From: Branchiostoma lanceolatum
Lineage: Eukaryota; Chordata; Leptocardii; Amphioxiformes; Branchiostomatidae
Direction of reading: 5' to 3'
Assembly (NCBI RefSeq): GCF_035083965.1
Contig: NC_089723.1
Span: 19,557,489 to 19,621,488 of the forward strand
DNA: 64,000 nucleotides
The translations under genes were made by a program, and so were the position numbers. This document shows, piece after piece, positions 23,266 to 45,859 of this stretch. How positions within the stretch are numbered: the stretch's first letter is position 1; every line of letters starts with the position of its first letter. Under the pieces are notes generated by a model. That model saw only the letters and a program-made list of their open reading frames with translations. It did no database searches and was not told the DNA's origin.

Positions 23266-23640
23266 CAAGATTTGCCACCACGACATTATGTCTTTACCGC
23301 CAATGACCATTTGTACACAAATGAAAACATACCAGACAGGGTTAATCATAACTCAGTCCACAAAACGCCGACATACTTTCATACCCATAATTATAATACA
23401 GGAAAAGCTCTGTAACAAATGAAAGGCTCACCATTACGACAAAAAACCTCATATGAGGATCAAATGTACAATTCTAGTTGTAAGAACGAAGACTAAGATT
23501 TGGTTTGTCTTCACCTGAACCCTTCCATCTTTTCAAATTTAGTTGTTTATGCGTTACGAATGAAAAGCCCACGATACGACCACCATAATCTAATGATGGT
23601 TTTATTTTGTATCTGTTAAGTGTATCTTTACTAGCAGAGT

Positions 23641-23650
23641 ATGGTATACC
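23641..23650. repeat. Left target-site duplication of the LINE
   Basis: ATGGTATACC abuts the inverted 5' end of the LINE. The identical 10-mer follows the LINE tail at 45651-45660. The core is palindromic, so chance identity is slightly less surprising, but both copies sit exactly where a TSD is expected. Confidence 0.7.
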
Positions 23651-23898
23651 AGTCCAGTGAGTCTCTCAAGAAGTGTATCCCCACCGAGTTTGTAGACCTC
23701 TGCTGGAATTCCGTCCACCCCTGGAGCCTTGTGGCACTTCAGTTTTGAGATGGCTGTCTTCACCTCCTCCTGCGTTGGTGTGTTGTCCAGTTCCACCCTA
23801 ACTTCATGCTGGGGGATTCTCATGATGGACTCTTCCTGTACTTGGCGTCTGTCTCCAAAAAGGTTGCCGTAGTGTTCGGACCACCGATGGAGAATGGC
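23651..23898 (-). mobile_element. LINE, inverted 5' segment (pre-RT domain)
   Basis: Read on the minus strand this encodes ILHRWSEHYGNLF, then VKTAISKLKCHKAPGVDGIP and AEVYKLGG..LLERLTGL, the domain just before the reverse-transcriptase core of non-LTR elements. It is head-to-head with the sense part that begins at about 23899. The two halves would be adjacent in an intact element and share TGGACTG at the join. This is the signature of twin-primed LINE insertion. Confidence 0.8.
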
Positions 23899-24329
23899 TG
23901 GACTGTTTGCCACCTGCTGGGAAAAAAGAGTTGTGCCACAAGATCTGCGTGATGCCGTTATTGTCTCACTGTATGAAAACAAAGGGGAGAAATCGGACTG
24001 CTCCAACTACAGGGGAGTTACCCTGCTGTCCCGTAGCAGGTTCAAGATACTGGCAAGGGTTGTACTGGACAGACTCATCCCTACCATTGCTGAAGAGAAC
24101 TTACCAGAGAGCCAGTGCGGCTTTAGAGCCAAGCGTGGAACGACAGATATGATATTTGTACTGCGCCAGATACAGGAGAAATGCAGGGAGCAGAACACGG
24201 GGCTGTATGCGGCTTTTATAGATCTGACAAAAGCCTTTGACACGGTAAGCCGAGATGGGCTCTGGAAGATCTTATCAAGGCTCGGATGTCCGCCAAAGCT
24301 CCTTGCGATCCTACAACAGCTGCATGAAG
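23899..24329 (+). mobile_element. LINE, N-terminal half of reverse transcriptase (disrupted)
   Basis: The open frame reads CWEKRVVPQDLRDAVIVSLY, then ENKGEKSDCSNYRGVTLL, ESQCGFRAKRGTTDMIF and FIDLTKAFDTVSRDGLW (RT motif A with the FxDLTKAFD core). It runs through LLAILQQLHE, where it is cut at 24330 by the 19-kb inverted-repeat element. The frame resumes at 43579 with the next expected residue, so no LINE sequence was lost. Confidence 0.85.
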
Positions 24330-24377
24330 CTTAAAGGAGTCCTAAACTCCAGAAGGCGGTGTTATTTTCCACTAGAT
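24330..24377 (+). repeat. Left terminal inverted repeat of the 19-kb insertion
   Basis: 48 bp starting CTTAAAGGAGTCCTAAAC. Six mismatches to the inverted right end. It starts directly after the LINE codon GAA plus one G. Confidence 0.8.
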
Positions 24378-24386
24378 TATGTATCA

Positions 24387-24785
24387 ATAATATTTACATG
24401 CTTTGATATCACCCCCTGCAAATTGGATCATACACCATGCCGTTTGGAAGTCATGAAGGGGGGACAGCCTAGATAGGGTTAAAAATCATTTGGTGGTACA
24501 GGACTAGTAGATGTGTCTAGTGTGCTGATATATGAGTCTGTATGTTGATATCATATGGGCCACAAAGGTTTGATATTGCAGTGTCGTATTTGAAAGTGAT
24601 GATGAAATAGTACAGTAAATATATATCAATAGAATAAATCTTTATCTATATCATACACATTTTGGAAGACGTCGACATAGTAAATGTGACTTTTCCGTAC
24701 CTAGCAGTGGTGCAGTTTTGGAGCAGTGTACTCTCCAAGCAGAGGAGTGGGTCCGGCTGGTTTTTGACGTGTTTGTAGGTTGTGG
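24387..24785. repeat. Subterminal repeat, copy 1
   Basis: This roughly 400-bp stretch is repeated in the same orientation at 41678-42090 at clearly recognisable identity (shared runs include TTTACATGCTTTGATATCAC and CTAGCAGTGGTGCAGTTTTG). A short piece is also present inverted near 42165-42230. It is non-coding on the plus strand; the minus strand has a 94-codon open frame (see 24700-24930). Confidence 0.75.
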
Positions 24786-24930
24786 ATAGCTTAAGTGATG
24801 CATTTTTCCCCATATGAAGTAACGTTACGTCGCCTTTATCCATAGTGCATTCTTTGTCAGCGGTTTTTGAAAATGGGGTCAGTAACACCGCCAGAATTAC
24901 AAACTTAAGAGACTTAAGTATTTGCAGCAC
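24700..24930 (-). other. Possible minus-strand exon with a hydrophobic leader
   Basis: The open frame has a hydrophobic run FVILAVLLTPF, then TYKHVKNQPDPLLCLESTLL and QNCTTAR. It ends at a good donor (CTAG|GTACGG) near 24700. It has no ATG before the hydrophobic run; a TTTTTAGACAG acceptor precedes it. The downstream half recurs in the repeat copy at 42002-42059 (LESTLLQNCTTA) and inverted at about 42165-42230 (KKQPDPHLCLES). It may be an exon of a secreted protein captured in the repeat, or chance. Confidence 0.25.
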
Positions 24931-26007
24931 TGTCTAAAAAGCTTTGATAACCATGCATTCGAAGACGACGCAGTCAAAAACATAACCATAATGCCCATAT
25001 TGGAACGTTTTGTCTACATCATAGTATAGTTACATGTTGACGTCTGCCCTGGCCTGACTGCGAGATTGGCCCCTTTACTATGATGCATTTGCTACATTCA
25101 TCCGCGATTAAAAAAAGTACAAAGCTGTTGATATTATTAGGGGAAAATTGTAGCGTTTGTTGTGATTTAGTAAATCAATATGAACTAGGTATCAAAACAT
25201 TATAGCACAGACCGTGTATTGAGCACGTCTAAGGGCGAAGAAACTTCACATGATGCGCTACACAAGAGTTAGTCCCGAGAGCAACCTGGTTGCCAGAACT
25301 GTGCTTATCCGCTGGAAATCATACAGGAATGACCAGAAGATAAAAAGTAGATCAATACCATTTCATGTTATCCCAACGATCAACTAGATGACGGAATTTT
25401 TGTCAAAAGATATAATTATAAGCCAGAGGATGGCTTGGATATTCAAAGTAGCTTGAGATGATGTATTCAAAACACGATTTACCATGTTCAACGCACGATT
25501 TTAAAGTTCATTCCTCCCAGGCGTTCGATCCGCCATGTTTGCTCCGGTTGCCATGGACACGGTGTTCTATTTACACAGATGACAACTAGCCAGCTCTAGA
25601 AGCAAGGTGGGGATTTTTCTCTCTCCGTTTTTAGACTTTAAAAAATCAGCAAAATGATAATGAAAATCACAAATCAAAGTCAAAAGTTACTCGTATGTTT
25701 TCTTTACACAAAGAGGAGACAGCAGGGTGACATAAAGTGGAAGTTTTGGGTCTGAAACGCACCAAACAATCTGAAATCATTTTTGCCGCTGAATGAATAG
25801 AACAAGGTCAAAGTCACCAAGGTTATTACTACTTATATAAGGACAACAACAGGATATTTTACGACAAAGACAGCCTGAAATGTAACCCAGTATTTTGTTT
25901 CGCAATATTTTAAGATTTATTAATGTATTGTTTGTGCTTGAGATAGATTTACATTTGTTTTTGATGACATTTGTAGGCATTTTACTCATCTACATTTGAG
26001 AAGTTGA
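24931..26007 (+). promoter_or_regulatory. 5' flank of the unknown repeat-protein gene
   Basis: No exon was found. Around 25530-25565 there is CCGCCATGTTTG (YY1-like) and GTTGCCATGGACAC at 25547-25560, a near-match to the RFX X-box. This is the likely promoter region, about 450 bp upstream of the first ATG. The rest is AT-rich. Confidence 0.4.
25547..25560 (+). promoter_or_regulatory. Near-consensus X-box
   Basis: GTTGCCATGGACAC fits RYYNYYATRRNRAC except at position 12 (C where R is expected). It lies 448 bp upstream of the unknown gene's ATG. Weak on its own; noted because neighbouring ciliary genes have full matches. Confidence 0.3.
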
Positions 26008-29000
26008 ATGATGGCGACTGCAAAGCCAGATCAACAGTCCAAGGACAACGCTAGCGTCGAGAAGACATCGATGTTTCGAAGAATGGTCCAGAAATTGAAG
26101 AAAGGATCAACAGAAGACGACTTGGAGGTTAAGGTTGAGACTAAGATCAATGTAAGTTTTTAAACGCCGCTGTACTGCATTGTTGTTTATGCCATTTGAA
26201 GTGATGCTATCTTTAGTTCAATTTTTTTTGTCACAAGGCGGCCTTATGTAGATTCTGCGGATGCTTCGCTAAACGTAGGTTACTATTTCTATGCCCCAAA
26301 GTGTGTATCAAGGACATATTAACGTTTGATAAGAGTATTTCTATTACGAAAATGCAAAATGGATACAAAATCATGACAAACTATAGACCCTTCAATCTAC
26401 ACTTGATATTTGCAGTCCACGTAAAGAAGTTATTTATTGAACGATTTAAATGCAACTTGTATCATTTTGCCATTGGACAAAAAAGTGCAACAGTCAAAAT
26501 TATCATTTTCAGAAAACATCATTTGCAGAAGTTACATAAGGTGGCCAAATTAGACTTTCTTATGTTTCATCATGATTATGGTTTATTACACCAATATGTA
26601 GTTTGTTGGTTCTTTAATTTCAGAAAATAATGCTGAAGTGAAATATCAACATAAAATCTGTCTGAGGGATTTCAGAAGGACTATAGTATTTTTAATGAGA
26701 TTTTCCTCCAAGCACTGTTTACTCCAAAATGTCTTAGAATTAATTGGTGTGATGTTTTTTTTCATTTGTTTTGCTTTGTTTTGTTTATTTGTTGTGTTGT
26801 TCTTATGGTAGCAATTGTTTCCTTTTCCTATTCAGCCAACCGAGAGAGTCAGCACAGAGCCCTCGTTAAGAGAGTAAGAACTGTTTTAGTCAGCTTTAGC
26901 TTAGTTAGCACTGCAGTCAGAAGTAGTCAGAGTTTACAACTATGAAAAAAAACTAGGAAAGAAGGAATCCAGTCTTCATTGTTGTATGTTTTTCTATGTC
27001 ACATACTATTACTAGTACACATTAACTTTGGGTGGGGGGGTTTCAAAATGGAGGGGTGCTCATAGCTGTTATTGTTGCTAGAAAATCTAGTGCCTCAGTA
27101 CAACATCATCGTGACAATTCACCAACTTGAAGGATTTAGTATTTCAAATAGACATAGACATTTGGAAATTGAAAAACAAAGTCAAGTGCAAAAGTCCTTT
27201 TTTTATGATGCCATAAAAGATGTGTCAGGTTTTTTTACTATTCAATTATGATACGATTTCCTAATTGTTATCATCAACTTTCTTTACAGGACAAAAGAGT
27301 GCACTGGGGCTCTCCCAGAAGACCTGCAAAACCTCCAGAAGTAAGTACTGTAAATACATTTATTTTCACAGATATCTTGTTAAATGGTAGGAGTGACAAA
27401 TAGGTTTAGTTGGTGGCCGAATTTGTGGTCAAAACAATAACGTAGCATATATAAAGACAGTTTTGCAGTGTCATGATTTTACTGTAGAGGGGCAGTGCAA
27501 AAACTGCAAAAATGAAATCAAGGTGATAATTTCAAGATGGACTGTAACTGTGTGGTAGCGCTATTTCATTTTTCAATTTCATTTTAATGTTATTAGTTTA
27601 AACAATAAATGAAGAATGATGGAAAATTGACTCCACAGGTCCAACTTCAGAATTAACTGATGCAACTGCTGCCACAATACTGTCAGTCAGTGTATATAAT
27701 CTCTTTATTTGTAATCTTTGCTGGAAACGACATCAATAATTGTTTATCATGATTATGGCATATCACTGTTAGTAATACTTACATCCCAACATTAGAGCAG
27801 GGAAGACTTCTATGTTCAGAAGAATGGTCATCAAACTGAAAAAAGAGTCAGCAGAAGATGACTTGGATGATGCGTCCAAGGTAAGTTCTAATGTTACTTG
27901 GGGAGTTTATTTATGTGTCAATACTGTAAATTTATTACTTTTGCAGTGGTTTTATTTCAACGAAAGATGAGGAGGGAGGTTATGGCAGTGTTTTAATCTA
28001 GTAATTTACTATTAGTATTACAATAATTACTATAGGGAGACATATTCACTGTGTCATGAATAATTGTGAAAAGTCACTGTAAAAAACATAGATTTAATAA
28101 AACCACCGGAAAGGTTTTAAGATTTACAGTAAAAATGGCAAGTACTTACTCCCCTGTGCCAAGTTCTTGTTATAGCATTTGAAGTGAAGAACATCATTTT
28201 AACAGAGTTCTTTGTTATATTTAAGGCCACTTTATGTAAGTTCTGTGGATGCTTCATGGGGTGGTTTGATATTGTACAAAATGTGTATGAAATATCTAAT
28301 GTAAGGAAGAAGTATGAAATTCTTAGGATAAAACTGTACACTGTGAATCCATACACAAAAAACTATTTTGAATTTGATTTGTAGGTAGGTAGGTAGATTT
28401 GAATTGCTTTCAGAAGTTCCTTTTGTTTTGCTTTATTCTGTTTGTGTTTTTTTTGTGTTAATTGTAGCATGTTTCTTACTTTCTTACTCAGCCAAGTCAG
28501 AGAGGCAGCAGTGAGCCCTCGTTGAAAGAGTAAGAACTCAGAAGTTTCAGTCAGCTTTAGCTATAGCCACTGTAGTCAGAAGTAGTCAGAGTTTAGAGCT
28601 ATGAAAATGTGTGTGTGGGGGGGGGGGGGTAGTATTCATTGTTACATGTTTAAAACGTATACTTGTATGCATACCCTGTCTTTTAGGGGGGGCAGAAAAA
28701 TCACAAGGGTTCTTTGAGTTGTTACTATTGCTACATGAAAGACTGTACTTAGACAGTTTCACTCAGCAGTATTTGAAATCATTTCTTCATCATTGCAGAA
28801 ATATATCAAAAAGATTTGACATTGAAGTACAATAACTATTATTGTAAACTATGTTGTTTACCATGGCAGAGATATCCTGCTTTTTTTATATAATATAACA
28901 GTACCAATTTATTCATCTTTTTTATTTCCTCTTCCTTTCAGGGTGATAGAGTACAGTGATGCTCTTTTGGACGAACTACAAGACCTACAGAGGTGAGAAT

Positions 29001-32000
29001 TAAAGTACACACACGTAGACAAAAAAATACTGGAAAAATATGACATAGATTCACTAGTTGATTCAGCTGATATATATGTAGAAACACTTGATAAAAGACA
29101 GTGAAACAACTGTCACAAATTTTGTTGGCCATTTTCTTTATCATTTGTCATTGAGACGTATGGCTAAAATGTTTCTACTTTGTCATTTCAGCTTGTTTCG
29201 GACGAAACAACACTACACCTCCATTTTTGTCAGGTAACATTAGACGTTGTGCTTGGAATTCTCTTTTTTTTAATACGTTAATTTTATAGGTTAAACGTAA
29301 AGGAAGGTTGGGTTTGATGACTACATGAAAGGTGGAAAGAAAGTACATGAAAGGTGGAAAGAAAGTCTAGAGCAGAATTCAATGTAGTCAAATCTATGAA
29401 ACTCTATAATGTTACAGATATGCACTTTTCTTTCTTGATGCAAGTTCAACAAGTTAGCTATGTAATCCACAGCAAGCAATTTATACAGATTAAGGATATT
29501 TTCTGGCAAATGTAAAACACCATTTCTATAGGACCTGGTGTTGTTATATCAATCAACATTACAACATTTAAGAATATTTTTCAGCTTAAAGCTGTAACAT
29601 CAGAACAATAAAAACAATCAAGATAATGAAACAAAATTTAATGTGTTGACACGTGGTATTAGATGTCAATTACATCAAGATCCTTTGCATCAAGAATACG
29701 AATGCAAATTTAGAGAGCACAATTCTGCAATTAAAGGAAATTCATGTGATGAAGAGAAAATACTACAGTTCTTTACTCTGTTTTTACTTTTAACAGGAGG
29801 CTACAAGAACAAACGGAAGACAACCACAAACAAGAGAACGAGATTCTGAGGTAAGAACAGTCATTTTTTACTAACGTCCTGTCCTTGGTGCTGAAAAGAT
29901 ATCTACTTGAATTGAATATTCATTTCTAAAGAATAAACTTGTATTTCATACAGTAGATCCTAGATAAACCTTTAGTTAAGCATTTTATATCACTTTCACC
30001 ATGTAATCTAAGAAATTGATGCATGATATTTACTCTAGATTTTGAAATATTCATTGTGTTTTAGTTTTGCTGCAAAACCATTACACCAGCAAACGTTCAT
30101 TTGTATTTGGAATCCATAATTTCTACTAATTGTTTAGACAACAAACTCAAAGATACCACAAACTCTTGATTTTCATTGTTCCATGAAATTTATTAGTGCC
30201 ATGAACTTAAATGAATTTATAGTATGACATAAAATACCACTTTTTGAAAAGTTTTAATTTGCTTCCTATCTTTGAATGGGGAGCCACATTGCTACTGTAA
30301 TTGTTGATCTTTTTTACGGTAATGAGACTTTTGCCACTAGTTAATGGCTAGAATTTCAACAAAGCAAATGTTTGATAACTAACATTTGAGACAATAATTT
30401 TCTTCCCACCATTAAAACTAAATGCTGTGAACTACTCCCTTTCCTCCCAAACACTAAAATACCAACTGCAATATTGAATGGGTTTACAGTATCTCTTTTC
30501 ACAGTTGTAGACATGCTTGTTGTCATTATATTCCTTAATATCGTTTTATGGATTCTTTCTAGTGACTTCGCCAGACGGCTAGAAGTCACCAATACGTAAG
30601 TTACAAATTATCATTTTGAGATCATATCAGCTGATCATGAACTAGAGCTATCACCATTGCGAAACATATACAGTCAAACCTGGCTGGCCACCTAGCAAAG
30701 ACAACCACCTCCATTCATAAGTCACATTGAAACAGTCCCATAAGATTTTGCATTGGTAAGACCCTCTTGTCTGGAGCAACCACCTCCAGTCACCAACCAT
30801 TTTCCTCTGTCCCTTGTTGAGACCATGTTTGACTGTATTTGTTTTTAGTAAATCTAGAATTACAAGCATGTAAGGTTGTTAAAGGCTTGTTAAAAATTTG
30901 AATGGCTTCTTTATACAATCTGAGTAAGCTCTTAAACCTCACAAATTTTGGAACTGAAATGAAAAATTGGCAATAGCAGAGAAATTCTTAAGAAACATTG
31001 AAACTTGATAGAAAGTGTTTCATTAATCAGTTGCTTGAAGATGCTTAACGATTCTTTGATGTCTTTCCTTAGAATGATCCGGAAGCTGGAAGAAAACACA
31101 CAACACAGGTGAGTTTGGTTCAAGGAATCACTCACTCACACACATGCTGATACTCACACTCACCCACATACTTGCTCCCTCCCTCCCTCCCTCCCTCCCT
31201 CACTCACTCACTCACTCACTCACTCACATTCACTCACACACATACATACTCACATACTGACATACACACACTCACCCACCCACTCTCCACTGACAATACA
31301 CAGTTTATTATCTCCATGAAAAAAGGCTTTTTCATGGAGTACTGTTTTGCTTGCGTTTGGTGTTTGTGTGTATGTTTGTGTCACCGGTCGCTTAAAGTCA
31401 CCATAACTGTAGAACCTGTACATGGATTGAAATGATTTTTGGTATGTGGGTGGGTGTTAGGTGGAGGAAGGTCAAGGTCGATTTTGGGCCTCCTAGCATG
31501 TGTGACTGGAACTGCAATGGCGTATTTGATAAAATCTTAAATGTAGAAGAACTGAAGAGTGGATGGACAGATCGTCATGTTCTTTGGTACACAGGTAGGT
31601 TAGACCAAGTTGTACACACTTAAGTGCAAACTATGCAGATGAGACCGAATTTGCATAAGTAAGGAGGTAAATCGTTTGCATGGGTGTCGTCGTATGCTTA
31701 AAGTCAGCATAACTGTAGAACGTGTAGATGGATTGTAGTGATATTTGGTATGTGGGTATGCGCTGGGAGGAGAATGGTCAAGGTCGATTTTGGGCCCCCT
31801 GGTTTGTGTCCCTGGAACTGCAATGGCCTATTTGTAAAAATGTTCTAAAGGGGTTTAACTGAAGAGAGGAACAACAGATTTTCATGTTATTTGGTACGTT
31901 GGTAGGTTGGATGGAGATGTACACACTGAAGTTCAAATCATGCGAAGTTATTGTGTTTGTGTGTGTGTGCGCGTGTGTGTATGTTTGTGTCACCGTGTTT

Positions 32001-35000
32001 GTATGTATGTGTCACCGGAAGCTTAAAATCAGCATAACTGAAGAACGTGTGGATGGATTGAAATGATATTTGGTATGTGGGTAGGTGCTGGGAGGAGAAA
32101 GGTCAAGGTCGATTTTGGGCTCCCTGGTATGTGTCACTGGAACTGCAATGGCGTGTTTGTAAATATTTTCAAAGGAGAATAACTGAAGAAAGGAGCGACA
32201 GATTTTCATGTTATTTACTTGGCAGGTAGCTTAGAGAGGGTTGAATACAATGAAGTGCAAATTATGCAAATTGGACTTAATTTGCCTAAGTAATGGGGAA
32301 ATCTATATTTGCTGTGTTGGCCTATCCTATATCGGGTATCCTATATCCGCGTAAGTGGGTCAATGGTCAACAGCTGTTGGCTTTAGCTTGCCAAGCCCAT
32401 CAATCAATTTAGCAACTGTTGGTTGTTAACAGCTGTTGGCGCTTAACAGTCTGTAGGGACTGATTTGACCAGACTAGAAGCTTGACAGCAGGTAGTGAAA
32501 GGAACAGTTTTACATGGTTTTAATGTAAGGCAACTCATTCCAGTCTGTCTGTATGTTTGAGGACCCCAGTTGAATAATATGGGAAAATAGCAAAGAAGAG
32601 GTCAAGATCAGTTTCTGTGGATCAAAGGATATATGATGGGGATCCAAAGCATAAGGTATGTGAACAAACCAGGACACATCACACATTTGATTATGTGTAA
32701 ATTCACTTTGACCTGTTAACAGGCTGTTTCTTGCTCATACCATGTACCAGTTGTGGTCTGGCTTTATTTTCTCAATGGTTTGGCAATGGTACTGTGGACC
32801 ACAATATATTTAACGTACAATGCTACCAGTTTATAGGTAACTACGTAGCACTTTGACATGATCTGGTCACTAAACCTTTCCTGCTTATCTATTGTACCCG
32901 TCTTTTATTCACCTGTAAAGTTGTGTTCTATCAACCGCTGTCCCTGTCCCTGTTTATAATTTACACAACTTCGTAGGCAAGGTCGGGATGTCTCCAGGTG
33001 TCAGAGATACACATGAGAGCCAAAAGAGAAGGAGAAACCAATGCACTGAGGCGTAACAGACAACATAAAACAAATATAAACACAACCACCCTGAAGCAGA
33101 TAAAACATAACATAACAACCCAACAACAAATAACATACACAAACCTAACACAACATAAATAAAATAAAAAACAAATTTCATGGAGATTTTGGGTCCTCAG
33201 ACTCTTGTTGTGTCTGGTTCCCTAACTAATGGGAATGTTTAATAAGACCAGTTGTATTTAAATCATCCCTTTGACAAGCACAGAGATAGCATATTATGAT
33301 ATTTTGATATCAGAATAACATAACTACTAGCTGAAGGGAGAGCGCACTGTTGCAAACCAAAAGAGAGACTCTCTAATACATTTGTACTATAACATATTTG
33401 ATATTTCTGTCCATTCTGTGTAACACAACAGGATCTCCCAGAAAGATGAGTTCATTCAGGAGCTTCAGGCTCATGTGGTTGTCCTGGAGTCAGAAAAGGA
33501 AGGGTGAGTTATCTTTGTTTCAAAACTTATCATGATTTATAGCATATGGTCAGAACCTGATCTTTATCAACTTAAAGGTTCAGGTCTTCTAGTAAGAATA
33601 TCAGTGTCACAGTAAAAAAAGCATCACATGAAACTCTCTCTATTTTTACCCAGGGAGAGAACAGAAGCAGCCACAAAGATTAGAGAACTGGAGAAGCGAC
33701 TCGTGGATCAAGCCGCAAACACACGGCAGCGGTGAGTTGGGTTAAGAAATTAGACTCGCTCACTCTCGCTCGTCCACTCTCACTCACTCACACACACACA
33801 CACACTCACACAATCACTCACACAATCACTCTCATTCATTCATCATTCACAATTACTCACTCGCTCATTCACTCACTCACTCACTCATGCACTCACAAAC
33901 TCTCATTCATCCATTCACACAATTACTCGCTCATTCACTCACTCACACGCTCACTCACACAATCACTCACACACTCACACACTCACACTCACTCACATAA
34001 TTACTCATTCATTCACTCACACACTCACTCACAATCACTCACTCAATCACTCACACAAACTCTCATTCATTCATTTCATCCATTCACACAATTACTCACA
34101 TGCTCACTCACTCACTTAGACACTCACACCTACCTTATTGTACCTAATGTTCTCATCAGACTTGGGAGTGTCAGATAAGTTATTAGTAATTAAACCCTCC
34201 TTTAACAAGGTTAGGGATAAGATACTGATATCTAATGATAATAGAATATCATTTTTCCCAATGCTGTATTAGAATAAGTATTTAGCTATAAGGAGGACCC
34301 ACTGTTGAAATCGACACAAAAGAGAGACTTCCTGAATTTTGTATTTTTATGATTGATCTCATTTTGTCTATTCTGTTCACCACAACAGAGTTTCCCTAAA
34401 AGATGAGGAGATCGAGCAGCTGAAGGATCGTGTGGAGCTTCTTGAATCAGAAAAAAAAGGGTGAGTTATCTGCATTCCAAACCTAGCTGTAATAAAACTC
34501 TCATTTTGGTATGAAAAGGAATAGCTAAAATTTGGAATCTGTGCCCCTCCCCCTTTGATTCTACCCAATGGTATGTAATTGATAGGTGTCTTAAAATATG
34601 TGCCAAATTGAAACAATGGCTATTGAAACAGCATTTAAACTGCTTGAATAACAACTTTGTAGTCAATTTTCTCCATCTAAACGGTGGTCTATATGATTAC
34701 TATGTGCTATTTTCATCGTTTACAGATTTGGTGAGGCCAGACTGCATGTAGGCACTCAAACCCTGGAGCAAGGGAATGATGTCCTGATTGACCCACGGCC
34801 CATACTACAGGACATACAGAAGGTATGTGTAATGTGGCATCTACAAATTTTGATTTCGGCATTGTTATGTAAAAGTCGTAAGAACCGAGCATGCTGTTAC
34901 GCAGTGAATCAAATGAATGTAATGTCATATACCATTTTTTCTATCTGCCATTTGAGACAAGGTACATTTGCAGTCATTATGACATCATATTGTTGGATTT

Positions 35001-38000
35001 TGGCCAGTATTTAAGGTTTATACTATTGTGTTTAATGATACCAATCACTATAAATGGGAAAGCTAGAGAATTTGCTTACTAAAAGGTCTTCCCTAAGTTT
35101 CATTTTAACGCTATTTTTACCTTCATACTTAGAATTGTCTCAATCAGTTTACCAATGCTTTGCATCAGTACCATGTGCTGTCTGTTGTTTCCAATAAAAT
35201 GTTTAATATTCCATGATGCATCAAGGAATACTCAAATATTATACATCCTTTTTTTTAGATGAGAAAAGAGAATGAGCAGAAAGCTGCACGTCAGCAGGAA
35301 CTGGTCAGAAAGATGCGAGAACAGGTAAGGATCGGAAACTGATTTTGTTTGGCCCAATCATTCCGTTTCGTCCATTTGTAACCTTGTCCTGCTGGCGTTG
35401 TTTCATTATCGGGTAGTTTTGCCTTGACTTTTTTTGCACTGCTGTGGCATAGTTACTTCTGCATTTGGTGCGTTTCACTGCGGTGTGATGCGTTCAGCTA
35501 AAAAATACCCCCAAAAACCCGTGCATATATGGGGCCGACATACAGGCTCTGTAATGTGCAACCCATATATATATATACATGGATAAGGATAAGGGTTAAT
35601 GATCATGATACTACATACATGTTATTGTTAGATTATATCCTGGTTAGTGAAGTATCCTCTATATGTATCATTATCAAGTGAACATTGTCAGATACTCCTT
35701 AAATGTGTATCAATGGATCAATTAAATCATTTATTCCGTTGGTAGATGGAGGCTAGTAAGGGGTTGATCAAGACGCTCAAACAGGTGAGTTTTGCAGATT
35801 CTGAAATGTTTTGATGAATACAAATATTGTGGTTGCCATTTTGATTTTGCAAATATGATATAACAAGATATCATATTGATCTGTGCTATTGAAAAACAAA
35901 AGAATAAAAAAGGCAGTCTTGCGTTTTGATATAATACTTAATATACTATATCTATTTTAGGTTCTGCACTGAAATAAATTCACATTAGATACAAATACTA
36001 TGCTTGCCAAGATGCACTGTTCTATTCAATTAATATCCCTTTTACCCTGGCATCATTACAGGATCTTACTGGGCAGACTGGGGCACATGAACATGTAAGT
36101 CACAAGTTTATGCGCCCTACAGTACAAACTACAGGTTTTGCTTTCATGCTACTGCAATTTTAAGTGTACTTTTGAAAACAATCGACGCTAGTATTTTGAA
36201 GCAGTTCTTCTAATTCAGTCTTCATTAAGCAATTACAATAACAAAACAGTCAATAACAACAAATAAATGTTTATAGAGAACTCAAGTATGTTGTCGCTAT
36301 GTTCCGTAAGTGTTAGGTAAACATTATTTCCATCGCTGATGAAAAGAGTCAGGTGGACACTTGAAAAGTCTGATAATTTCATACTGTAATCCGGGGGTAT
36401 GGATTAAATTACAATTCTATTATTAATCAATAATAGATTATTCACTGACATTCACATTCACATTTGCATGTTACTATATTCCTGTCTATGGTGCTGATTT
36501 TTATGCTGTAATCACTTTTTTAGGGTAAAGTGAAGAAAGACATGGCAGGGACGTCAGCTAAGAAGGAACATGCGGCGTTTGAGATGCCCACGCTGCTTCT
36601 CAACGGCCTACCCCTGGCTCTGCCAGATGACGAGCAGCACAAGCCAACAGATAAGAAGGAAGCCGTGGCGTTTGAGGTGCCCACGCTGCTTCTCAACGGC
36701 CTACCCCTGGCTCTGCCAGATGACGAGCAGCACAAGCCAACAGATAAGAAGGAAGCCGTGGCGTTTGAGATGCCCACGCTGCTTCTCAACGGCCTACCCC
36801 TAGCTCTGCCCGATGACGAGCAGCACAAGCCAACAGATAAGAAGGAATCCGTGGCGTTTGAGATGCCCACGCTGCTTCTCAACGGCCTACCCCTGGCTCT
36901 GCCAGATGACGAGCAGCACAAGCCAACAGATAAGAAGGAAGCCGTGGCGTTTGAGGTGCCCACGCTGCTTCTCAACGGCCTACCCCTGGCTCTGCCAGAT
37001 GACGAGCAGCACAAGCCAACAGATAAGAAGGAAGCCGTGGCGTTTGAGGTGCCCACGCTGCTTCTCAACGGCCTACCCCTGGCTCTGCCCGATGACGAGC
37101 AGCACAAGCCAACAGATAAGGAGGAATCCGTGGCGTTTGAGATGCCCACGCTGCTTCTCAACGGCCTACCCCTGGCTCTGCCAGATGACGAGCAGCACAA
37201 GCCAACAGATAAGAAGGAAGCCGTGGCGTTTGAGATGCCCACGCTGCTTCTCAACGGCCTACCCCTGGCTCTGCCAGATGACGAGCAGCACAAGCCAACA
37301 GATAAGAAGGAAGCCGTGGCGTTTGAGATGCCCACGCTGCTTCTCAACGGCCTACCCCTGGCTCTGCCCGATGACGAGCAGCACAAGCCAACAGATAAGA
37401 AGGAAGCCGTGGCGTTTGAGGTGCCCACGCTGCTTCTCAACGGCCTACCCCTGGCTCTGCCAGATGACGAGCAGCACAAGCCGGCAGATAAGAAGGAACA
37501 TGCGGCGTTTGAGGTGCCGATGCTGCTTCTCAACGGCCTACCCCTGGCTCTGCCCGATGACGAGCAGCCCAAGCCGGCAGATAAGAAGGAACATGCGGCG
37601 TTTGAGGTGCCGACGCTGCTTCTCAACGGCCTACCCCTGGCTCTGCCCGATGACGAGCAGCACAAGCCAACAGATAAGAAGGAAGCCGTGGCGTTGAAGA
37701 TGCCCACGCTGCTTCTCAACGGCCTACCCCTGGCTCTGCCAGATGACGAGCAGCACAAGCCGGCAGATAAGAAGGAACATGCGGCGTTTGAGGTGCCGAC
37801 GCTGCTTCTCAACGGCCTACCTCTGCCCGATGACGAGCAGCACAAGCCAACAGATAAGAAGGAAGCTGTGGTGTTTGAGGTGCCGACGCTGCTTCTCAAC
37901 GGCCTACCTCTGCCAGATGACGAGCAGCAGATGCTGGCAGATAAGAAGGAACATGCGGCGTTTGAGGTGCCGACGCTGCTTCTCAACGGCGTACCTCTGC

Positions 38001-39001
38001 CAGATGACATACAGCATGTACAGACAGAGAAGGAACCTGCGACTGCTGCAATGCCAGAGACTGAAAAGCCCGATGGATACCCTCCAACAAATGGTGCAAA
38101 TGAGGGTGAAACGTTCGGGAAGGAACCTGCCACCCCACAGGGCTTCTTGAATCGCAGCTTGCCGTCAGGTGATGCAAACATAACAGAGCCATCGGTAAAT
38201 CCTGAACTAGAGCTGCCGTGCCCTCCAGAGTCCATTGCTGTGCAGAGCGTCACCCGGAGTCTTGAAGAGCACAGAGTCCATCCGCAGTCTTCTATGGTCC
38301 ACGTCTGTCCGATTGGTGCGCTGTACGAGGCTATACCTGACTCGCTCGTGCAACAGTACCTCCTCTCTCGACGTCTAGCAGCCTATGCTCACCAGGCACG
38401 TTTAATGGTGTTACCTGACTCCGTCATGAAACAGTACCTTCTCTCTCAGCGCATAGCAGCCTATGCTCAACAGGTACGCTTAATGCATGCAATGGATCGT
38501 GGACAAACAAATGACAATCCACCCGACAATCCTGACTCTGCTCGAAAGTCAGCGTCGTCCCCAGCACAGGCTTGTTCGGGAGATTACAAGCTGAACCACA
38601 GTGAATTGTCGCAGAGGCCCTCCTTTAGGTTAAGGGCGTCTTCGGACTCGCTGCCAACTCCTGAAGTCGGTGGTGGAGACATAAAACCACAGGTCTGGTC
38701 TGCACCAGGGGTTGTAAGAAATGATGAACCCCAAGGACTGGAAATTGTACCTGAGAATTCCTCCACACCAGAGCATGCCCACGCCGCGCAGCAGAAGGTA
38801 TTGCAGAGATGTCAGCCCACTGACTCGTTTGGCACGTCGTCAACCAACAACACGGCCACCGCGTCCTGCCAAGGAAAGAGCCCCAAGCTTCCTGGCACTG
38901 AGGGAGAGGACACTGTTCGAAACGACCCCGCGTCTTTCCCACTGGCAATGCTGAAGTCCAGAATTAAGAGGGGCCACAGACTGACCACTACGTTATTCTG
39001 A
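26008..39001 (+). CDS. Unrecognised coiled-coil protein with 16 tandem 31-aa repeats (complete, 18 exons, ~1,168 aa)
   Basis: Exons: 26008-26151, 26836-26873, 27290-27340, 27796-27880, 28492-28529, 28942-28992, 29192-29233, 29797-29850, 30563-30595, 31073-31108, 33432-33503, 33654-33731, 34389-34460, 34726-34822, 35259-35324, 35746-35784, 36062-36094, 36524-39001. All splice sites are GT-AG and the frame stays open throughout. Residues 1-136 contain a duplicated block (KTSMFRRMVQKLKK and KTSMFRRMVIKLKK). Residues 150-345 look like coiled coil rich in E, K, Q and R. Residues about 363-854 are 16 copies of a PTLLLNGLPLALPDDEQHKP-type unit. A doubled segment with PDSLVQQYLLSRRLAAYAHQ follows near residue 950, then a Ser/Pro-rich tail. 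No signal peptide or membrane segment is visible. I do not recognise the family and assign no function. It lies wholly inside the inverted-repeat-bounded insertion. A first ATG at 26008 or 26011 is equally possible. Confidence 0.8.
27922..28131. mobile_element. MITE-like element, TACTGTAAAT family (intact)
   Basis: 210 bp starting TACTGTAAATTTATT and ending AAGATTTACAGTA, a short terminal inverted repeat around an AT-rich core. It lies in intron 4 of the unknown gene, in the second copy of the duplicated three-exon block. It is absent from the equivalent intron of the first copy, so it inserted after the duplication. Confidence 0.55.
31122..31290 (+). repeat. (CCCT)n/(CACT)n simple repeat in intron 10
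   Basis: Runs of CCCT and then CACT begin about 14 bp after the exon-10 donor. The donor-proximal sequence is similar to that of intron 12, whose array is at 33756-34128. Apparent open frames here are low-complexity artefacts. Confidence 0.85.
31370..32310. repeat. Three tandem ~310-bp repeat units in intron 10
   Basis: The GCTTAAAGTCA...GGTCAAGGTCGATTTTGGGC block recurs with starts near 31391, 31697 and 32022 (306 and 325 bp apart), in the same orientation. Related sequence occurs on the opposite strand at 42470-43040. Non-coding. Confidence 0.75.
33756..34128 (+). repeat. (CACT)n/(CA)n low-complexity array in intron 12
   Basis: About 370 bp of CACTCA/CACACA sequence starts shortly after the exon-12 donor. 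It is the counterpart of the shorter array in intron 10 and supports tandem duplication of the exon 10-11 block to exon 12-13. Confidence 0.9.
36581..38030 (+). repeat. 93-bp coding minisatellite, 16 units
   Basis: Thirteen 31-codon units are followed by two of 29 codons (missing an Ala-Leu pair) and one degenerate unit. Each encodes a variant of PTLLLNGLPLALPDDEQHKP followed by TDKKEAVAFE. The first nine units are almost identical in DNA; the last units are more diverged. Length is always a multiple of three, and nearly all forward and reverse frames are open, which creates large false ORFs. Confidence 0.95.
38335..38486 (+). repeat. Two-copy coding duplication after the minisatellite
   Basis: It encodes PDSLVQQYLLSRRLAAYAHQ followed by ARLM, and then PDSVMKQYLLSQRIAAYAQQ followed by VRLM. 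These are two 24-aa predicted helices separated by two or three residues, inside exon 18 of the unknown gene. Confidence 0.85.
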
Positions 39002-41677
39002 TAGCTAGGAGCTGTATCAGAAAATATTTGCTGAAGACTTGACGAGATTCTATGCCACAATGCGTGTTCAACAAGGTGATCATTAGACATTACATGTGAC
39101 TACTGTGTCAACAATGGCGCGTCCACTCAGTATAAGTCATACTATTCTACCATTTGTCTACATTTAATTTCCATGTGTACATGAATATCAGGATACTGTG
39201 CATGAGTGAACACCATTTTGGTCATCACCTATCGTCAGCATGTGTGATTTTATTATGCCAGTGTAATATATGGGTCATCGTATGTAAGCGAAGACACAAA
39301 ACATCACTTCAGAGACGACCTGTTTATGTGTGAAATTGTACATACTTTTGAAATTGTACATGTATAAATCAAAGTGACACGACAAAAATTTATTTATAAA
39401 ACACAGATTTTAACCAAAGTATTTTATGATGCTTTACATCCATGTATATGTGAGTGTAAAAACAGACATTTTAACCCGAGATGTATCTTGTGATGCAATT
39501 CAGAACTATATTTATTTAAGACACTGACTGTTATTGTGGCTTTGTACACAAGTGAAATGTAATATATGTGTCTTTTGAAGCGCCAAGAGGACTGTGCTGT
39601 ATTTCTTGGACTGTGGTGTGGCTTGTGGTATATGGAATAGATCAAATATTAAACCAAGATGCCGCAGCCATATAATCCAACCACATTCAGTACCTTGCAT
39701 ACTTAGTGCGTCTACAAAGTGAAAACTTTGTACCTGAAAATTGTATCGTTCTGTAGCGGTGCTATTTCAGTACTTTTGCAACCATTTTTGTAGGTTCTAG
39801 TTGCTTACATAACCTAGGTAGTGCCTACGTTAGAAAATACTAACGCGCAGAATAAGTCAGATTTCTCCCTGGTACGGAATGGTATGGCGTTTGTCCGCTA
39901 AACCAACAGACCCGACTATTGCGGCATATTTTTTTTTCGGATTGGAATTTTCAAAGGCACTTTTTCAACGTTAAATATGGAGCTCATTACTACCAATAGA
40001 GTCGAACAAAGTCAATAGCCAAACAACAAAACATGTGTAAAGGAAATTTTTCATCCCAACATCTGCTTGGAGATGATATTCTTTTTTTCTAGGACAACTG
40101 TTCATCCGCTATTTATATGTACCTTAATACCTTAATATATAAACACTAGACCCTAAAATGATATGAGAAGGACATACTGTACCTGTAAACTATAGATTAT
40201 TAGGTTCTATCCTACTGAAAAATGCATATGGTTCTTGTCCTATGTTGCCTGAAATTACCTGTTTATATAAAAAAATACGTCAAACACGATTTGATAAAAA
40301 ACGTCAAAACATGTTTGGTCTACCATTTTAGACTGCTGCAAACATGTGCAGCCTTTTGAGCAAGCCTGTCTGTACAACTAACGTATAGTTTGAAGGCTAC
40401 TGTCTGTGATATCATTCTGTGGTCTAATGTCAAGTTCTCTGTCATTTTAATCATAACAGCGGGTGAATTTGAGTTTAAGTTAAAAAGGCCGAGTTAATTT
40501 AGGGAAAGTGGATGCAGTTTACATACTCCCTTAACCCACTGATTATGGACTAAACTTGAAATATGTATGAATATAGGAGGCGCTTCGATAGGCGTGATAT
40601 GAGCTCCAGCCCCCGTATCTAAAAATTGGTCCTGTATGGAGACGCGTGATTTCAAAAGTCTTACATGTCACCCTACATGTATTTGAAGATTTTCATACCT
40701 TTTTGGTCGAGTTTTTAAATAGTCTAGGCGTAATGCCTTAGATATTTTCGTATCTTATAAGACGGGAGTATATACCCTATTGGAGCATTATCTGCAGTAC
40801 CGCTCCCGGCCGTATACAGAAAAGTGACAAAGGAGACCGTCAAATTGCCAAATTTCAACCTTTTCGGGAATGGGGAAATCACAAAAGACTCGCAAAGGGG
40901 TTTTGCAAAAAACAACATTGGATGTTGGGTTATGGATGATATGCTTTCTTTGTATCTTACCAATGGTAATTTCCTGTAAGTTACCACTTTCTGAAGGACT
41001 ATTCATCATAATTTCAATCGTAATTAATGTAACAATAGCACGTTGAACAAATGGAACAGTTTTTGTCTGATTGTCAAGAAATCTACCAACTTTTTCACCG
41101 TATGGTGTGAATGCACTAGTGAATCGTCTAGATATGGCAGTTAGTTAATGTATGTTGTTGTTTGATGAGGAAAGTGTATTTTGTATGTTATGCGTTGGTG
41201 CTTTAGTGCCATAGCAATAGTTTATGATAATAGTTTGGCCGACTTATGCCGCTAAAATGCTGATGTTGCACACTAGTATTAATTTCAATAGTGGACACAT
41301 GTTAACGTTCATATACATATAAGCCCACTTTCAAACTCCTCATCTAGCCTGTTAGGGTGCTTAATTACCGTTTACAAAGCTAATTAGCGAAAGATTCAAG
41401 CCATTTCGATTAAGCAACTCGCTGCGGTTCAAGGACGCCACTGTTACATAGCGGCATGAAGTAGAACTGCAAGTAGACCTGCCAAGGCAGCAGAACACGG
41501 TTTTTCGCCAATGGCGATTTCTATAGTGAAAGACCACAAAGTGACGGAAACAGACGGGAATAAAACTATAGTAGGGTACCCTAGAGAAACACGACAAATC
41601 AATATGCTGAATTTGAGGTTACAATCGGAACAATGATAGTAAACAAAACAAACAAGGCTTATTATGAATAGCAATTC
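39002..41677. other. AT-rich DNA downstream of the unknown gene
   Basis: 3'UTR and intergenic DNA inside the 19-kb insertion. No canonical AATAAA was seen close to the stop; ATTAAA-like sequence occurs near 39648. No transposase, RNA gene or exon could be supported on either strand. Confidence 0.5.
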
Positions 41678-42090
41678 ATATTTACATGCTTTGATATCAC
41701 CCCCTGAAAATTTGATCATACACCATGTGCTGTTTGTAAGTTTTGAGGGGGGGGGGGAGATAGGGTTAGGAATCATTTGCTGGTACAGGACTAGTGTAGA
41801 ATGTAAGTGTCTTGTATGCTGATATATGTTAAAACTGGTCATGAAAAAAAAATGAGTACAGTATGTTGAAATTATGGGCCCTCAAAGGTTTGAAATTGCA
41901 GTGGCGTAAGTTGAATGTGATGATGAAATGTCGCGTCAATACATATGAATAAGAATAGAATAAATCTTTATTCCATGTCATACACATTTTGAAAGACATA
42001 GTAAATGTGACTTTACCGTACCTAGCAGTGGTGCAGTTTTGGAGCAATGTACTTTCCAAGCAGAGCCGTGTTTTTGACGTGTTTTTAGGT
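41678..42090. repeat. Subterminal repeat, copy 2
   Basis: Direct-orientation copy of 24387-24785 with small indels. The minus-strand frame LESTLLQNCTTARYGKVTFT is kept here, but the upstream leader is lost. A 65-bp part of the sequence then reappears inverted at about 42165-42230. Confidence 0.75.
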
Positions 42091-42469
42091 GTTTTGTCGG
42101 GCTTTCTATTTCGTCCCCTTTTCGTTATGTCGCCAACGTGCTTTGGACAAACATGCCTAAACTAAACATGTGAAAAAACAGCCGGACCCACACCTCTGCT
42201 TGGAGAGCAGTGCTGTGCTCTATTTGTTTATTTGACCTTTTTTTCCCAGGCTATCTGTTTGTAAGACCTGTTTTCTGGGAAACCGTCACATGTTTAAGAG
42301 TCCCAATATGAAATGCATCAAACTTTCCTTACTAATTATGCCAATTATATCCTGATTCGCATAATTAGTCGTTTATTATGTAAAGCACCATCTGAGCTAT
42401 CTGAATGACAAACGTCACGACGATCTGTCGACCCCTTCTCAAGTTATTCCTGTCCGAAGGTCAAAACAA

Positions 42470-43040
42470 AAACACCCACTGCAGTTCCAAACAAGACGCT
42501 AGGGGGCCCAAACTTTTACAACTTACTTCCTATAACATGAACTATCTACCACACAAAAATCATGACCATAGCACTTGTAGAAAACATGCCCTCAAATTTT
42601 GAAGCTCGGCTGCAGTACCTTAGGTACCCGCTAGAATGCCCATTATCGAACTTGACCTTCCTTTTTGTAAACCCTACCCATCCACTAAATATCATGCAGA
42701 ACCATCGACAGCTTTTCGAGTTATCTTGTCCACAAGAAATACACATCGAAACAAAGCCCGCTGCAGTACCGACGGAAAATGCCAGGAGAACCATTTTTGA
42801 ACTTGACCTCCGTTTTTACAACATCTACACACCTGCAAAAAATCTTGAAGATCCATCAACGTTTCCGTCACTTTTTTTTTGCCTACATACAAACACAGTC
42901 CGCTGCAGTACTGTTGAAAAACGCAAGGTAAACCATTTTCGAACTTGACCTTCCTTTGCACAACCACTACACACCTACCAAAAATCATAAAGATTCATCG
43001 AAGCTTTCTTGAGTTATGCGCCTGACATACATACAGACCC
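42470..43040 (-). repeat. Tandem ~140-150-bp repeat, about four units
   Basis: Units begin around CTGCAGT at 42479, 42614, 42763 and 42903 and share GAACTTGACCTTCC and ATCATnnAGAnCCATCnA-type blocks. The reverse complement resembles the intron-10 units at 31370-32310, so this is one dispersed tandem family. Confidence 0.65.
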
Positions 43041-43530
43041 ACCTAACAGATTTTTCAACCGAAAACATAATCTTCCCGAGTACAAGTACTCGGCGAAGAT
43101 AATCAATACATAATCAGCCGACTTTGTACAAAATTCCGCTTGTGGTGAATTACACAAGGTGTTTTTTTTTTAACAATATGATACTCACTAAACCCCTGCA
43201 GACCCTACCAGTGCATTCCCTATGCGTAAACATACATTTTTAAATGCGGATATTTTCGGCGTAAATGAGGGTGGTTAAGCACAATAAGAAGGCCAATTGT
43301 TAATAAGATATAAAAGAACACATAGCAAGACGGGTTTTTCTTAACCACCCTGACATTCTTTCTGTAATCTGAATTTTGTCAGGCATTGTCAGGCACATTG
43401 TAAAAAACACATAGGCTGAGGGTCACCTGGGGAATTTGGTAGAATACTGAATGCTTTTGGATGCACACGGGACTAGTGAGTACTTTATCGTATACTGCAA
43501 AAATATTCATTTCTACTTCCTAAAAATACC

Positions 43531-43578
43531 ATCCATTGGAAAATAACTCCCCCTTCTGGGCTTTAGGACTCCTTTAAG
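43531..43578 (-). repeat. Right terminal inverted repeat of the 19-kb insertion
   Basis: It ends GGACTCCTTTAAG, the inverted counterpart of 24330-24377. The LINE frame resumes at the next base. Confidence 0.8.
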
Positions 43579-44480
43579 GTCAGAAGGGTCAAGTGAAACA
43601 CAGCGGAGGCCTGTCAGAGCCGTTCCCGATCGACAACGGAGTCAAGCAAGGATGCGTTCTTGCCCCTACTCTCTTCGCCATCTTCTTCAGTATGATGCTG
43701 AGAGAGGCCAAGGAGGATCTCACTGAGGGGATCTACATCAGGTTCAGAACGGACGGTAGCATCTTCAACCTCAGGAGACTCCTAGCCCGCACAAAGACAC
43801 TGGAAGAGCTGATCCTCGATTTGCTGTTCGCAGATGACTGTGCACTCCTGGCTCACACAGAGGAAGCCCTACAGACAGTTGTCAACCACTTTGCAGAAGC
43901 ATGTAAGGCCTTCGGGCTCACCATTAGCCTCAAGAAAACGGAGGTGATGTACCAGAAGCCACCACGTGGAACCTACACCCCTCCACAGATCAGCATTGAC
44001 GGGCAGTCTCTGAACGCAGTCGAGCACTTCACTTACCTGGGGAGTGTCATCTCCAACGATGCTACAGTGACCAAAGATGTGGACAGCCGACTTGGCAAAG
44101 CCTGCAGCTCGTTCGGGCGGCTACAGAAGCGTGTCTGGAAGAACCACTCACTGCGTCTCTCAACAAAGATCCAGGTGTATAGAGCAGTAGTCATCACCAC
44201 TCTTCTGTGCTGAGACTTGGGTCCTGTACCGGAAGCAGGTGCGACTCCTGGAGCGCTTTCACCAGCGATGCCTGCGGTGCATCATGGGCATCAAGTGGCA
44301 GGACTGTGACAAAGTCTTAGAGAGAGCGAACCTCCCCAGCATGGAGGCACTGCTGCTGTCAAAGCAGCTCCGATGGGCTGGTCACTTATCACGGATGGAG
44401 GACTCCAGAATGCCCAAAGCTGTCTTCTACAGTGAGCTGTGCCAGGGCAAGCGGGACAGGGGAGCCCCCAGCTCAGCCGG
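43579..44480 (+). mobile_element. LINE, C-terminal half of reverse transcriptase (disrupted)
   Basis: It continues the frame broken at 24329: GQKGQVKHSGGLSEPFPIDN, then GVKQGCVLAPTLFAIFF and the catalytic LLFADDCALLAH (motif C, the F/YADD box with FADD here). FTYLGSVISNDATV and, after a small frameshift near 44213, CAETWVLYRKQVRLLERFHQ and LRWAGHLSRMEDSRMPKAV follow. These are thumb and C-terminal landmarks of APE-type non-LTR elements. It is cut at 44480 by a 0.94-kb element. The frameshift and the insertions make it dead. Confidence 0.85.
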
Positions 44481-45418
44481 TGTCACAGGGATCTCGCACC
44501 CCCCGTGAATTTGAACCCCCCGGTTCGAAATCACTAGTGAATTTGCACCCCCCGGTGCGAAATCCCTAGCGATTTCGCACCCCTCTAGTGATCTCGCACC
44601 CCCAGGGTGTAGTATGTGTTCTGTTACGGCATTCATAATTCCCAGTGGCTATCTTTTTAACAAATTGATTGGTAACTATAACTGACATTTCAAATGCTCT
44701 GTTGACTGAAGTGGTAACGAAGTGGGTTGTGCAATGACTATCTGGGAGTCATGGTTCTTGTGTTCAAATCCTGGTGGCGACATTTTTATCCCATAGTTTT
44801 TAACATTAAATAACTAATAATTCTTACTCAGAAATGTCATAAGATTTCGATTAAGGCTTCGATAATTTTTTTCTAACCCTATTTAAACCCGTCATCCATT
44901 CAATATGTGATATAATTTTGTATGATAAAATGTTATTCAAGTCTCTAAAATAATCTAAAAAATCAATTATGAACATTGAAGTAAAACTATGAACTAATCG
45001 TACATTCCTCATGGCACAAAGGAAGAATATTACAACGAATCATCGTGCACAGAGAGTCACCATCATCGCGCTGTGCTGAAATACTAGTAGCGTTACATTA
45101 GTCCAGGGCATGGGTTCCCGGCCGGAGTCTTAGATGTTTGTTCTGTCAGACACAGCAACTTGTAATACTCTCGATTACCACGTTAAACTATGGCTTTATT
45201 ATATCAAAATGCAGTTTTGAATATAATTGCTGCACAGACAGAGCACCTTTCGAAATATTTGGGGGGTTCAAAATCCCTAGGGGGGTTCGAGGAGGGGGTG
45301 CGAGATCCCTAGCTGGGGGGTGCAAGATCGCTAGGGATTTCGCACCGGGGGGTGCGAGATCCCTAGTGATTTCGCACCGGGGGGTTCAAAATTAGGGGGG
45401 TGCGAAATCCCTGTGACA
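44481..45418. mobile_element. 0.94-kb inverted-repeat DNA element inserted in the LINE
   Basis: Ends TGTCACAGGGAT and ATCCCTGTGACA-like are perfect at the first 11 bp and flanked by CCGG on both sides (44477-44480, 45419-45422), a possible 4-bp TSD or an extension of the TIR. Both arms are built of iterated GGGGTGCGAAATCCCTAG-type units in opposite orientation. The core is AT-rich and non-coding, so it is non-autonomous. Confidence 0.8.
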
Positions 45419-45650
45419 CCGGCATTCCAGTAAAAGAATGGGAGAACAGCTCGAAGAGAGTCTGCTGCTGAGAAGAGAAGCCACAGGAAAGCTGCTGCTG
45501 CCCAGTCTCCACCTACACAGGTCTTTACCTGCCCGGCCTGCAGCAGAGTGTGCAGATCCAGGATTGGGCTACACAGCCACAGAAGAGCCTGCAGAGGAGG
45601 ACTACCTTCCCAATGATCTTCGGAACGAAGAAGCAGCCATCATCATCATC
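45419..45650 (+). mobile_element. LINE 3' end with zinc-finger tail and (ATC)n
   Basis: After the 0.94-kb element the LINE resumes, encoding VFTCPACSRVCRSRIGLHSH followed by RRACRG, a C-terminal finger, and ends in an (ATC)n tail at 45639-45650. The tail directly precedes the right TSD. Confidence 0.8.
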
Positions 45651-45660
45651 ATGGTATACC
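45651..45660. repeat. Right target-site duplication of the LINE
   Basis: ATGGTATACC, identical to 23641-23650. Confidence 0.7.
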
Positions 45661-45859
45661 GAAATATAGATTTTTCATTTTTGTTCTTTCAAATCGTCTT
45701 CTTTGACTTCTGTGTCAGCATTAGCCTTTTCCTACTGAGCCTTTTGATCATTAAAGCAGCAAAATGAAGTTACATGGAACTCCTGTCCAGAGGACTTTAA
45801 AGCTATCTCAGTCTACACCCTGTCAATATCAACATTCATATCAAAGATACCATTGGCCA

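Follow-up and report, generated by a model that had tools for sequence, protein, structure and literature searches.

A 19.25-kb segment with inverted ends and a predicted 18-exon gene lies inside a LINE of Branchiostoma lanceolatum and may be a non-autonomous Kolobok-type transposon

How did a predicted gene of 18 exons come to lie, between two inverted repeats, within a single copy of a long interspersed nuclear element (LINE)? The question is raised by a stretch of 64,000 nucleotides from Branchiostoma lanceolatum (GCF_035083965.1, contig NC_089723.1, positions 19,557,489 to 19,621,488 of the forward strand), which we call the window and whose numbering is used throughout. In this window a segment of 19.25 kb (24330-43578), bounded by 48-bp inverted repeats, sits inside one LINE copy. 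The answer that we favour, and to which we give an even chance of being right, is a 19.24-kb non-autonomous Kolobok-type transposon, perhaps composite, that entered the LINE in one cut-and-paste insertion with the whole gene as its cargo. The LINE and the borders of the segment are made up as follows.

23641-23650, no strand assigned: left copy of the 10-bp target duplication of the LINE, ATGGTATACC, identical to 45651-45660
23651-24329, no single strand: 5′ part of the LINE, from translations; inverted from 23651 to about 23900, in plus orientation from about 23900 to 24329
24330-24377, plus strand: left 48-bp terminal inverted repeat (TIR), 42/48 matching the right end
43531-43578, minus strand: right 48-bp TIR, 42/48 matching the left end
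43579-44480, plus strand: continuation of the LINE (QKGQVKHSGG...FADD...), from translations; one frameshift near 44205, followed by a second element
44481-45418, no strand assigned: second nested element of 938 bp with inverted repeats, TGTCACAGGG...CCCTGTGACA, which breaks the same LINE after 44480
45419-45650, plus strand: 3′ part of the LINE with a Cys/His motif (TCPACSRVCRSRIGLHSHRRAC) and a short tail of CAT repeats, from translation and sequence
45651-45660, no strand assigned: right copy of ATGGTATACC, identical to 23641-23650

That the segment entered a LINE which was already in place is well supported by the target duplication outside the LINE, the ungapped joint of the reverse transcriptase (RT) and the inverted ends lying at this joint. 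Left of the insert the open RT frame ends one base into the codon that follows ...LLAILQQLHE, and when the two flanks are joined they read LLAILQQLHE-GQKGQVKHSGG in a single frame. The joined flanks (a fragment starting at 24002) matched the Pfam family RVT_1 with an E-value of 2.5e-34, and both printed PDB alignments, one with the R2 retrotransposon protein and one with a reverse transcriptase-like protein, span the joint without a gap. ATGGTATACC is located at the LINE ends and is the longest of the three exact matches of at least 8 nt listed between 23480-23720 and 45560-45900. Because ATGGTATACC brackets the LINE from outside, both halves go back to a single retroposition, which preceded the arrival of the 19.25-kb segment; an origin of the halves from different LINE copies is ruled out by the common duplication together with the ungapped joint. 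An inverted 5′ part combined with a target duplication is the typical picture of twin priming.

A first-pass annotation of this locus, made from the sequence alone, had stated that no LINE bases were lost, which agrees with the ungapped, in-frame joint. It had also placed the break between adjacent codons. The frame indeed rejoins, but at the border 24329/24330 the break falls within a glycine codon (G|GT), and it lies between codons only after a shift of one base, which is allowed because of an AAG ambiguity at the joint. Its further claim of one transposition-like event stands as far as insertion into a pre-existing LINE is concerned; a single event would be the most economical course.

The inverted ends are not a product of chance. 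They match at 42 of 48 positions, as had been noted before, while 200,000 random pairs of 48-mers from the window reached a maximum of 28/48. The 17-bp tip, with up to three mismatches, occurs at two sites within the window, both at the borders, and two or more matches were seen in only 1 of 100 shuffles. The tips themselves read as follows.

TTAA at 24331-24334, plus strand: left tip C-TTAA-AGGAGTCC; the element proper starts at 24335 if TTAA is the target
TTAA at 43574-43577, minus strand: right tip GGACTCCT-TTAA-G; the element proper ends at 43573

The repeated sequence present in both arms of the insert could have misled the assembly, such that the LINE in truth holds a short element only and a contig with the gene was joined in through these repeats. 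We consider this improbable: the window contains no N bases, the LINE halves derive from a single insertion, the assembly would have to be wrong at two joins, and the borders between TIR and LINE are themselves consistent.

Inside the insert, a gene model was built by hand after an automatic scan.

26008-39001, plus strand: predicted gene with 18 exons, encoding a coiled-coil-like protein of 1,168 aa
26008-26151, 26836-26873, 27290-27340, 27796-27880, 28492-28529 and 28942-28992, plus strand: exons 1-6
29192-29233, 29797-29850, 30563-30595, 31073-31108, 33432-33503 and 33654-33731, plus strand: exons 7-12
34389-34460, 34726-34822, 35259-35324, 35746-35784, 36062-36094 and 36524-39001, plus strand: exons 13-18
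36555-37999, plus strand: array within exon 18 in which a unit of 93 bp (31 codons) is repeated in tandem and in frame about 15.7 times

The model comprises 1,168 codons plus a stop, without internal stops and with matching phases. The exon borders were picked by hand to fit phases and GT-AG, which means that GT-AG at 17/17 introns is partly by construction. Of the 31 exons proposed by the automatic scan, the model retains 14 as they were and three with a new border; another three became part of exon 18, and the remaining 11 were left out. A gene on the minus strand was rejected, as the best chain there scored 140.3 compared with 403.5 on the plus strand. The earlier view that a whole 18-exon gene is enclosed is thus upheld by an open predicted model, with borders that are in part constructed.

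The coiled coil was assigned by eye. Exons 1-17 gave no Pfam family above the cut-off and, at E-values up to 1, no relative in the PDB. The PAAR_motif match on exon 18 (E 1.4e-14 and 54.5 bits, the cut-off being 27, with no single passing stretch) was dismissed as an artefact of the tandem repeat. It is only from its 17 introns and its coiled-coil-like content that the gene would appear to be of host origin, and it may be expressed.

Parts of the gene look duplicated, namely exons 1-3 and 4-6, as well as exons 11 and 13. For these short pairs, in which dS values near 1 are unreliable, dN and dS amounted to 0.13 and 1.32 (exons 1 and 4), 0.23 and 0.39 (exons 2 and 5), 0.38 and 1.01 (exons 3 and 6) and 0.29 and 1.26 (exons 11 and 13), and a further 78-bp pair gave 0.15 and 0.36. 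The 93-bp array is nearly uniform, with a pN/pS of 0.61 over 13 units, and its copy number is possibly variable. At most, the values of the exon pairs and the repeat indicate old constraint, not present function. In the duplicated exons 11 and 13 (33328-33503 and 34283-34460) the 5′ intron flanks are alike at 80/98 positions compared with 49/72 for the exons. A flank more alike than its exon is the opposite of the usual constraint, in a small sample.

No transposase was recognised by Pfam in the 51 insert open reading frames (ORFs) that were scanned (21 + 30) out of 99 with at least 55 aa, and within this scope the earlier remark on a missing transposase holds. From the 48 ORFs outside the scan, 13 start within exon 18 and 35 elsewhere; a transposase whose frame is interrupted by introns, or one that Pfam does not cover, could have escaped. 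Matches below the Pfam cut-off were discarded and none is a transposase: PKcGMP_CC, DUF6243 and PRD in exons 1-17, DUF2703 in the RT, and Spt46, PH_FT_N, ComK, p12I, ODV-E18, PSD13_N and NinF. Rfam gave no matches at gathering thresholds.

To which family could such an insert belong? The tips can be read as TTAA-AGGAG...CTCCT-TTAA, with RR...YY termini and a tip that agrees with AGGRR. According to published descriptions, T2-MITEs combine a TTAA target with AGGRR (PMC6004289), and Kolobok elements have RR/YY termini with TTAA (PMC9587614). The insert shares with them the TTAA adjoining both tips, the RR/YY termini and the AGGRR motif (PMC6004289, PMC9587614). Kolobok is reported from many animals, and its KolobokP lineage from three Branchiostoma species (PMC9587614). 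Judged by these tips, the insert may be a non-autonomous Kolobok-type element carrying a whole gene. It differs from the Kolobok and T2-MITE elements described there in that no transposase was recognised and in that a TTAA duplication does not fit a LINE joint of normal length. A DDD/E transposase belongs to autonomous Kolobok members only and was not found in the ORFs scanned; a non-autonomous member needs none. The two TTAA are not independent, being a palindrome inside an inverted repeat, and the motif TTAA-AGGRR was chosen from those of many superfamilies once the tips had been seen. As this motif is common on its own, it receives its weight only from its position at the inverted-repeat tips.

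Related groups fit less well. KolobokP, like the insert, has direct repeats around an internal region and is present in Branchiostoma, but its terminal direct repeats of about 450 or 660 bp each have TIRs of up to 18 bp and its transposase lies inside (PMC9587614). KolobokP was ruled out, since the insert has no long terminal direct repeats with TIRs of their own, and none were found at the inner ends; the right-hand copy of its direct repeat (A′, below) stops 1.5 kb short of the right end and lacks a TIR. Spy, a PHIS group, was ruled out because it needs an AAATTT target without duplication (PMC4482050), while the target here is GAAG^GTCAG. NuwaII, also PHIS, needs C|TNA|G and mostly GG tips (PMC4482050); it was ruled out as well, because C-TTA-AA... 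on the left and ...TT-TAA-G on the right have different triplets and the tips are not GG.

The arms next to the TIRs contain the following repeats.

24378-24774, plus strand: left subterminal sequence A, with a direct copy at 41661-42094
41661-42094, plus strand: A′, a diverged direct copy of A; 339/374 aligned bases identical, Kimura two-parameter distance 0.10, 20 gap blocks
42164-42207, minus strand: 44 bp that repeat the inner end of A (24731-24774) in inverted orientation, 91% identical

A BLAST alignment of 24376-24774 with 41661-42094 gave 337/387 aligned bases identical and 59 gap columns in 446. In a composite, the outer ends of two element copies bound the block; here we found outer TIRs matching at 42/48 and the direct pair A/A′, whereas inner ends were not found. 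This arrangement hints at a composite, in which two copies of the same element, each half decayed, would flank the gene. Repeated units also occupy about 42.3 to 43.0 kb and recur inverted in intron 10. The related units lie in opposite orientation at 31365-32301 (intron 10) and 42313-43019 (right arm), where they are followed by a palindrome, CCGAGTACAAGTACTCGG. We take them to resemble Helentron-associated (HINE) elements.

Put together, our favoured course of events would be that a 19.24-kb unit with TTAA-AGGAG...CTCCT-TTAA ends jumped as a single unit into a fairly young LINE, with the complete spliced 18-exon predicted gene travelling as cargo. Its two outer ends would have been brought together by a transposase encoded at another place. 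These ends would probably derive from two separate, diverged copies of one short family which flanked the gene by chance in the same orientation (a macrotransposon, or composite), and the inner ends of both copies would have decayed.

The age of the LINE bears on this sequence of steps. With no stops in 1,590 counted nt, its age is bounded at about 4.8% substitutions (95%), and one frameshift lies there; the count omits the 3′ part beyond 44470, where the frame shifts too, and two of its pieces overlap by about 26 nt. The indel rate of A/A′ would predict about 42 indels in the counted LINE stretch, compared with the one frameshift. Because the indel density of A/A′ far exceeds that of the LINE, the arms had probably diverged before landing. 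Such prior divergence speaks against a duplication on the spot, but leaves room for a copy that was already diverged when it came in. That A/A′ arose by duplication during a later arrival of the gene in the landed element is unlikely by indels and marginal by substitutions.

In P elements, gaps left by excision are known to be repaired from ectopic templates. By an analogous route in two steps, the second of the two options in the first-pass annotation, a short element would have entered the LINE, and a break in it would have been repaired from, or recombined with, an ectopic copy beside the gene, such that about 17 kb were copied between the arms. This would yield the identical anatomy TIR-A-gene-A′-TIR, and an A′ that is already diverged is what one expects of incoming DNA. 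It requires an extra event, and arms that are about 10% diverged and carry many indels besides would have to recombine; no junction or conversion tract was seen. We therefore regard the two-step course as a possibility with perhaps half the weight of a single insertion.

The gene could also be a long-term resident of a giant Kolobok-type family, in which case the 19-kb unit would be a family of its own with its transposase in trans. The undecayed open frame and the lack of recognised relatives for exons 1-17 point in this direction, and Xenopus Kolobok elements reach 13.9 kb (PMC6004289, Table 5). The present unit, at 19 kb and with an intron-rich gene, exceeds the sizes in that table. Furthermore, 17 introns and the absence of a recognised transposition protein in the ORFs scanned would be unusual for a transposon gene, and we consider a resident gene unlikely, only slightly less so than an assembly error.

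Several observations weigh against a composite Kolobok-type element that landed once. With a LINE of normal length, the target duplication of the insert would be 0-3 bp, at most AAG. A TTAA duplication would imply an empty site GAAG-CTTAAG-GTCAG, in which the normal-length RT is extended by six bases that include a stop. As speculation, the excision footprint of an earlier element, AAG-CTT-AAG, could have created the TTAA. An ordinary duplication is readable in the same LINE, as the 938-bp element is cleanly flanked by CCGG (44477-44480 and 45419-45422). In addition, TTAA-AGGRR or its mirror occurs at four sites in the window, two at the borders and two elsewhere, compared with 3.2 expected in shuffles. 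No TIR was found at the inner side of A or A′, which leaves both flanking copies incomplete, and A might instead be an independent interspersed repeat. Finally, dating by substitutions is marginal (the LINE bound of 4.8% against about 5% to 6.5% per lineage for A/A′), and part of the A/A′ gap blocks may be alignment noise.

The best-known DNA transposons that carry pieces of genes are those of plants. For maize Ac, macrotransposons of 10.3 and 28 kb are described (PMC9910405), in which, as proposed here, a block that moves together lies between the outer ends of two copies of an element; in maize, however, the 28-kb unit was seen to excise and its ends are those of known elements, whereas here the inner ends are gone and movement is deduced (PMC9910405). 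The Drosophila Ising transposable element between foldback elements is likewise an animal composite with chromosomal DNA between DNA transposons, but it spans hundreds of kb and involves other elements (PMC6431247). Pack-TYPE elements and Pack-MULEs, as well as Tgm-Express, hold host sequence between TIRs (PMC8903248, PMC6431247, PMC1947982). Such elements are known for fragments of genes, and among them the Pack-MULEs of Jiang et al. 2004 measure up to 7 kb (PMC6431247), whereas here a whole 18-exon gene of presumed host origin lies between the TIRs with no transposase recognised. A fungal hAT with a captured histone H3 also has a host gene inside a TIR element, but that gene is small and its hundreds of copies were amplified and then inactivated (PMC6710886). 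ToxhAT, a fungal transposon of about 14 kb, holds a complete gene; it is named as a hAT and reported as horizontally transferred, and neither hAT identity nor transfer is shown here (PMC11857905). Among the titles and abstract beginnings listed, a scope that leaves out most subscription literature, none announced an animal whole spliced gene between cut-and-paste TIRs. Searches of viral and prokaryotic collections carry little weight: the TIR pattern had no match in viral_contigs and the A core none in genome_contigs, and six pattern matches of the LINE RT in viral_contigs were not confirmed.

Elsewhere in the window, a CFAP69 gene lies at the left (Pfam CFA69_ARM_rpt in three ORFs), and Pfam matched further ORFs to WD40 (17.6 kb) and Calx-beta (52.6 and 53.8-54.6 kb). 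We presume the WD40 ORF to be dynein-intermediate-chain-like and the Calx-beta ORFs to be ADGRV1-like. The region of the latter contains a 38-bp tandem repeat of 5.8 copies (57911-58130). In the 938-bp element the arms are about 88% alike and include units of about 32 bp such as GATTTCGCACCCC.

With its precise borders, its apparently intact 18-exon gene and a LINE of limited age around it, this locus would offer a clean test of whether DNA transposition relocates genes in animals. An empty LINE allele (GAAGGTCAG or GAAGCTTAAGGTCAG), a parent locus of the gene and further copies of the ends are to be expected. That a giant Kolobok-type family carries an intact multi-exon gene with its regulatory flanks around an animal genome seems doubtful to us; if it were true, whole spliced genes would spread by cut-and-paste, and the family would be an animal counterpart of bacterial composite transposons.

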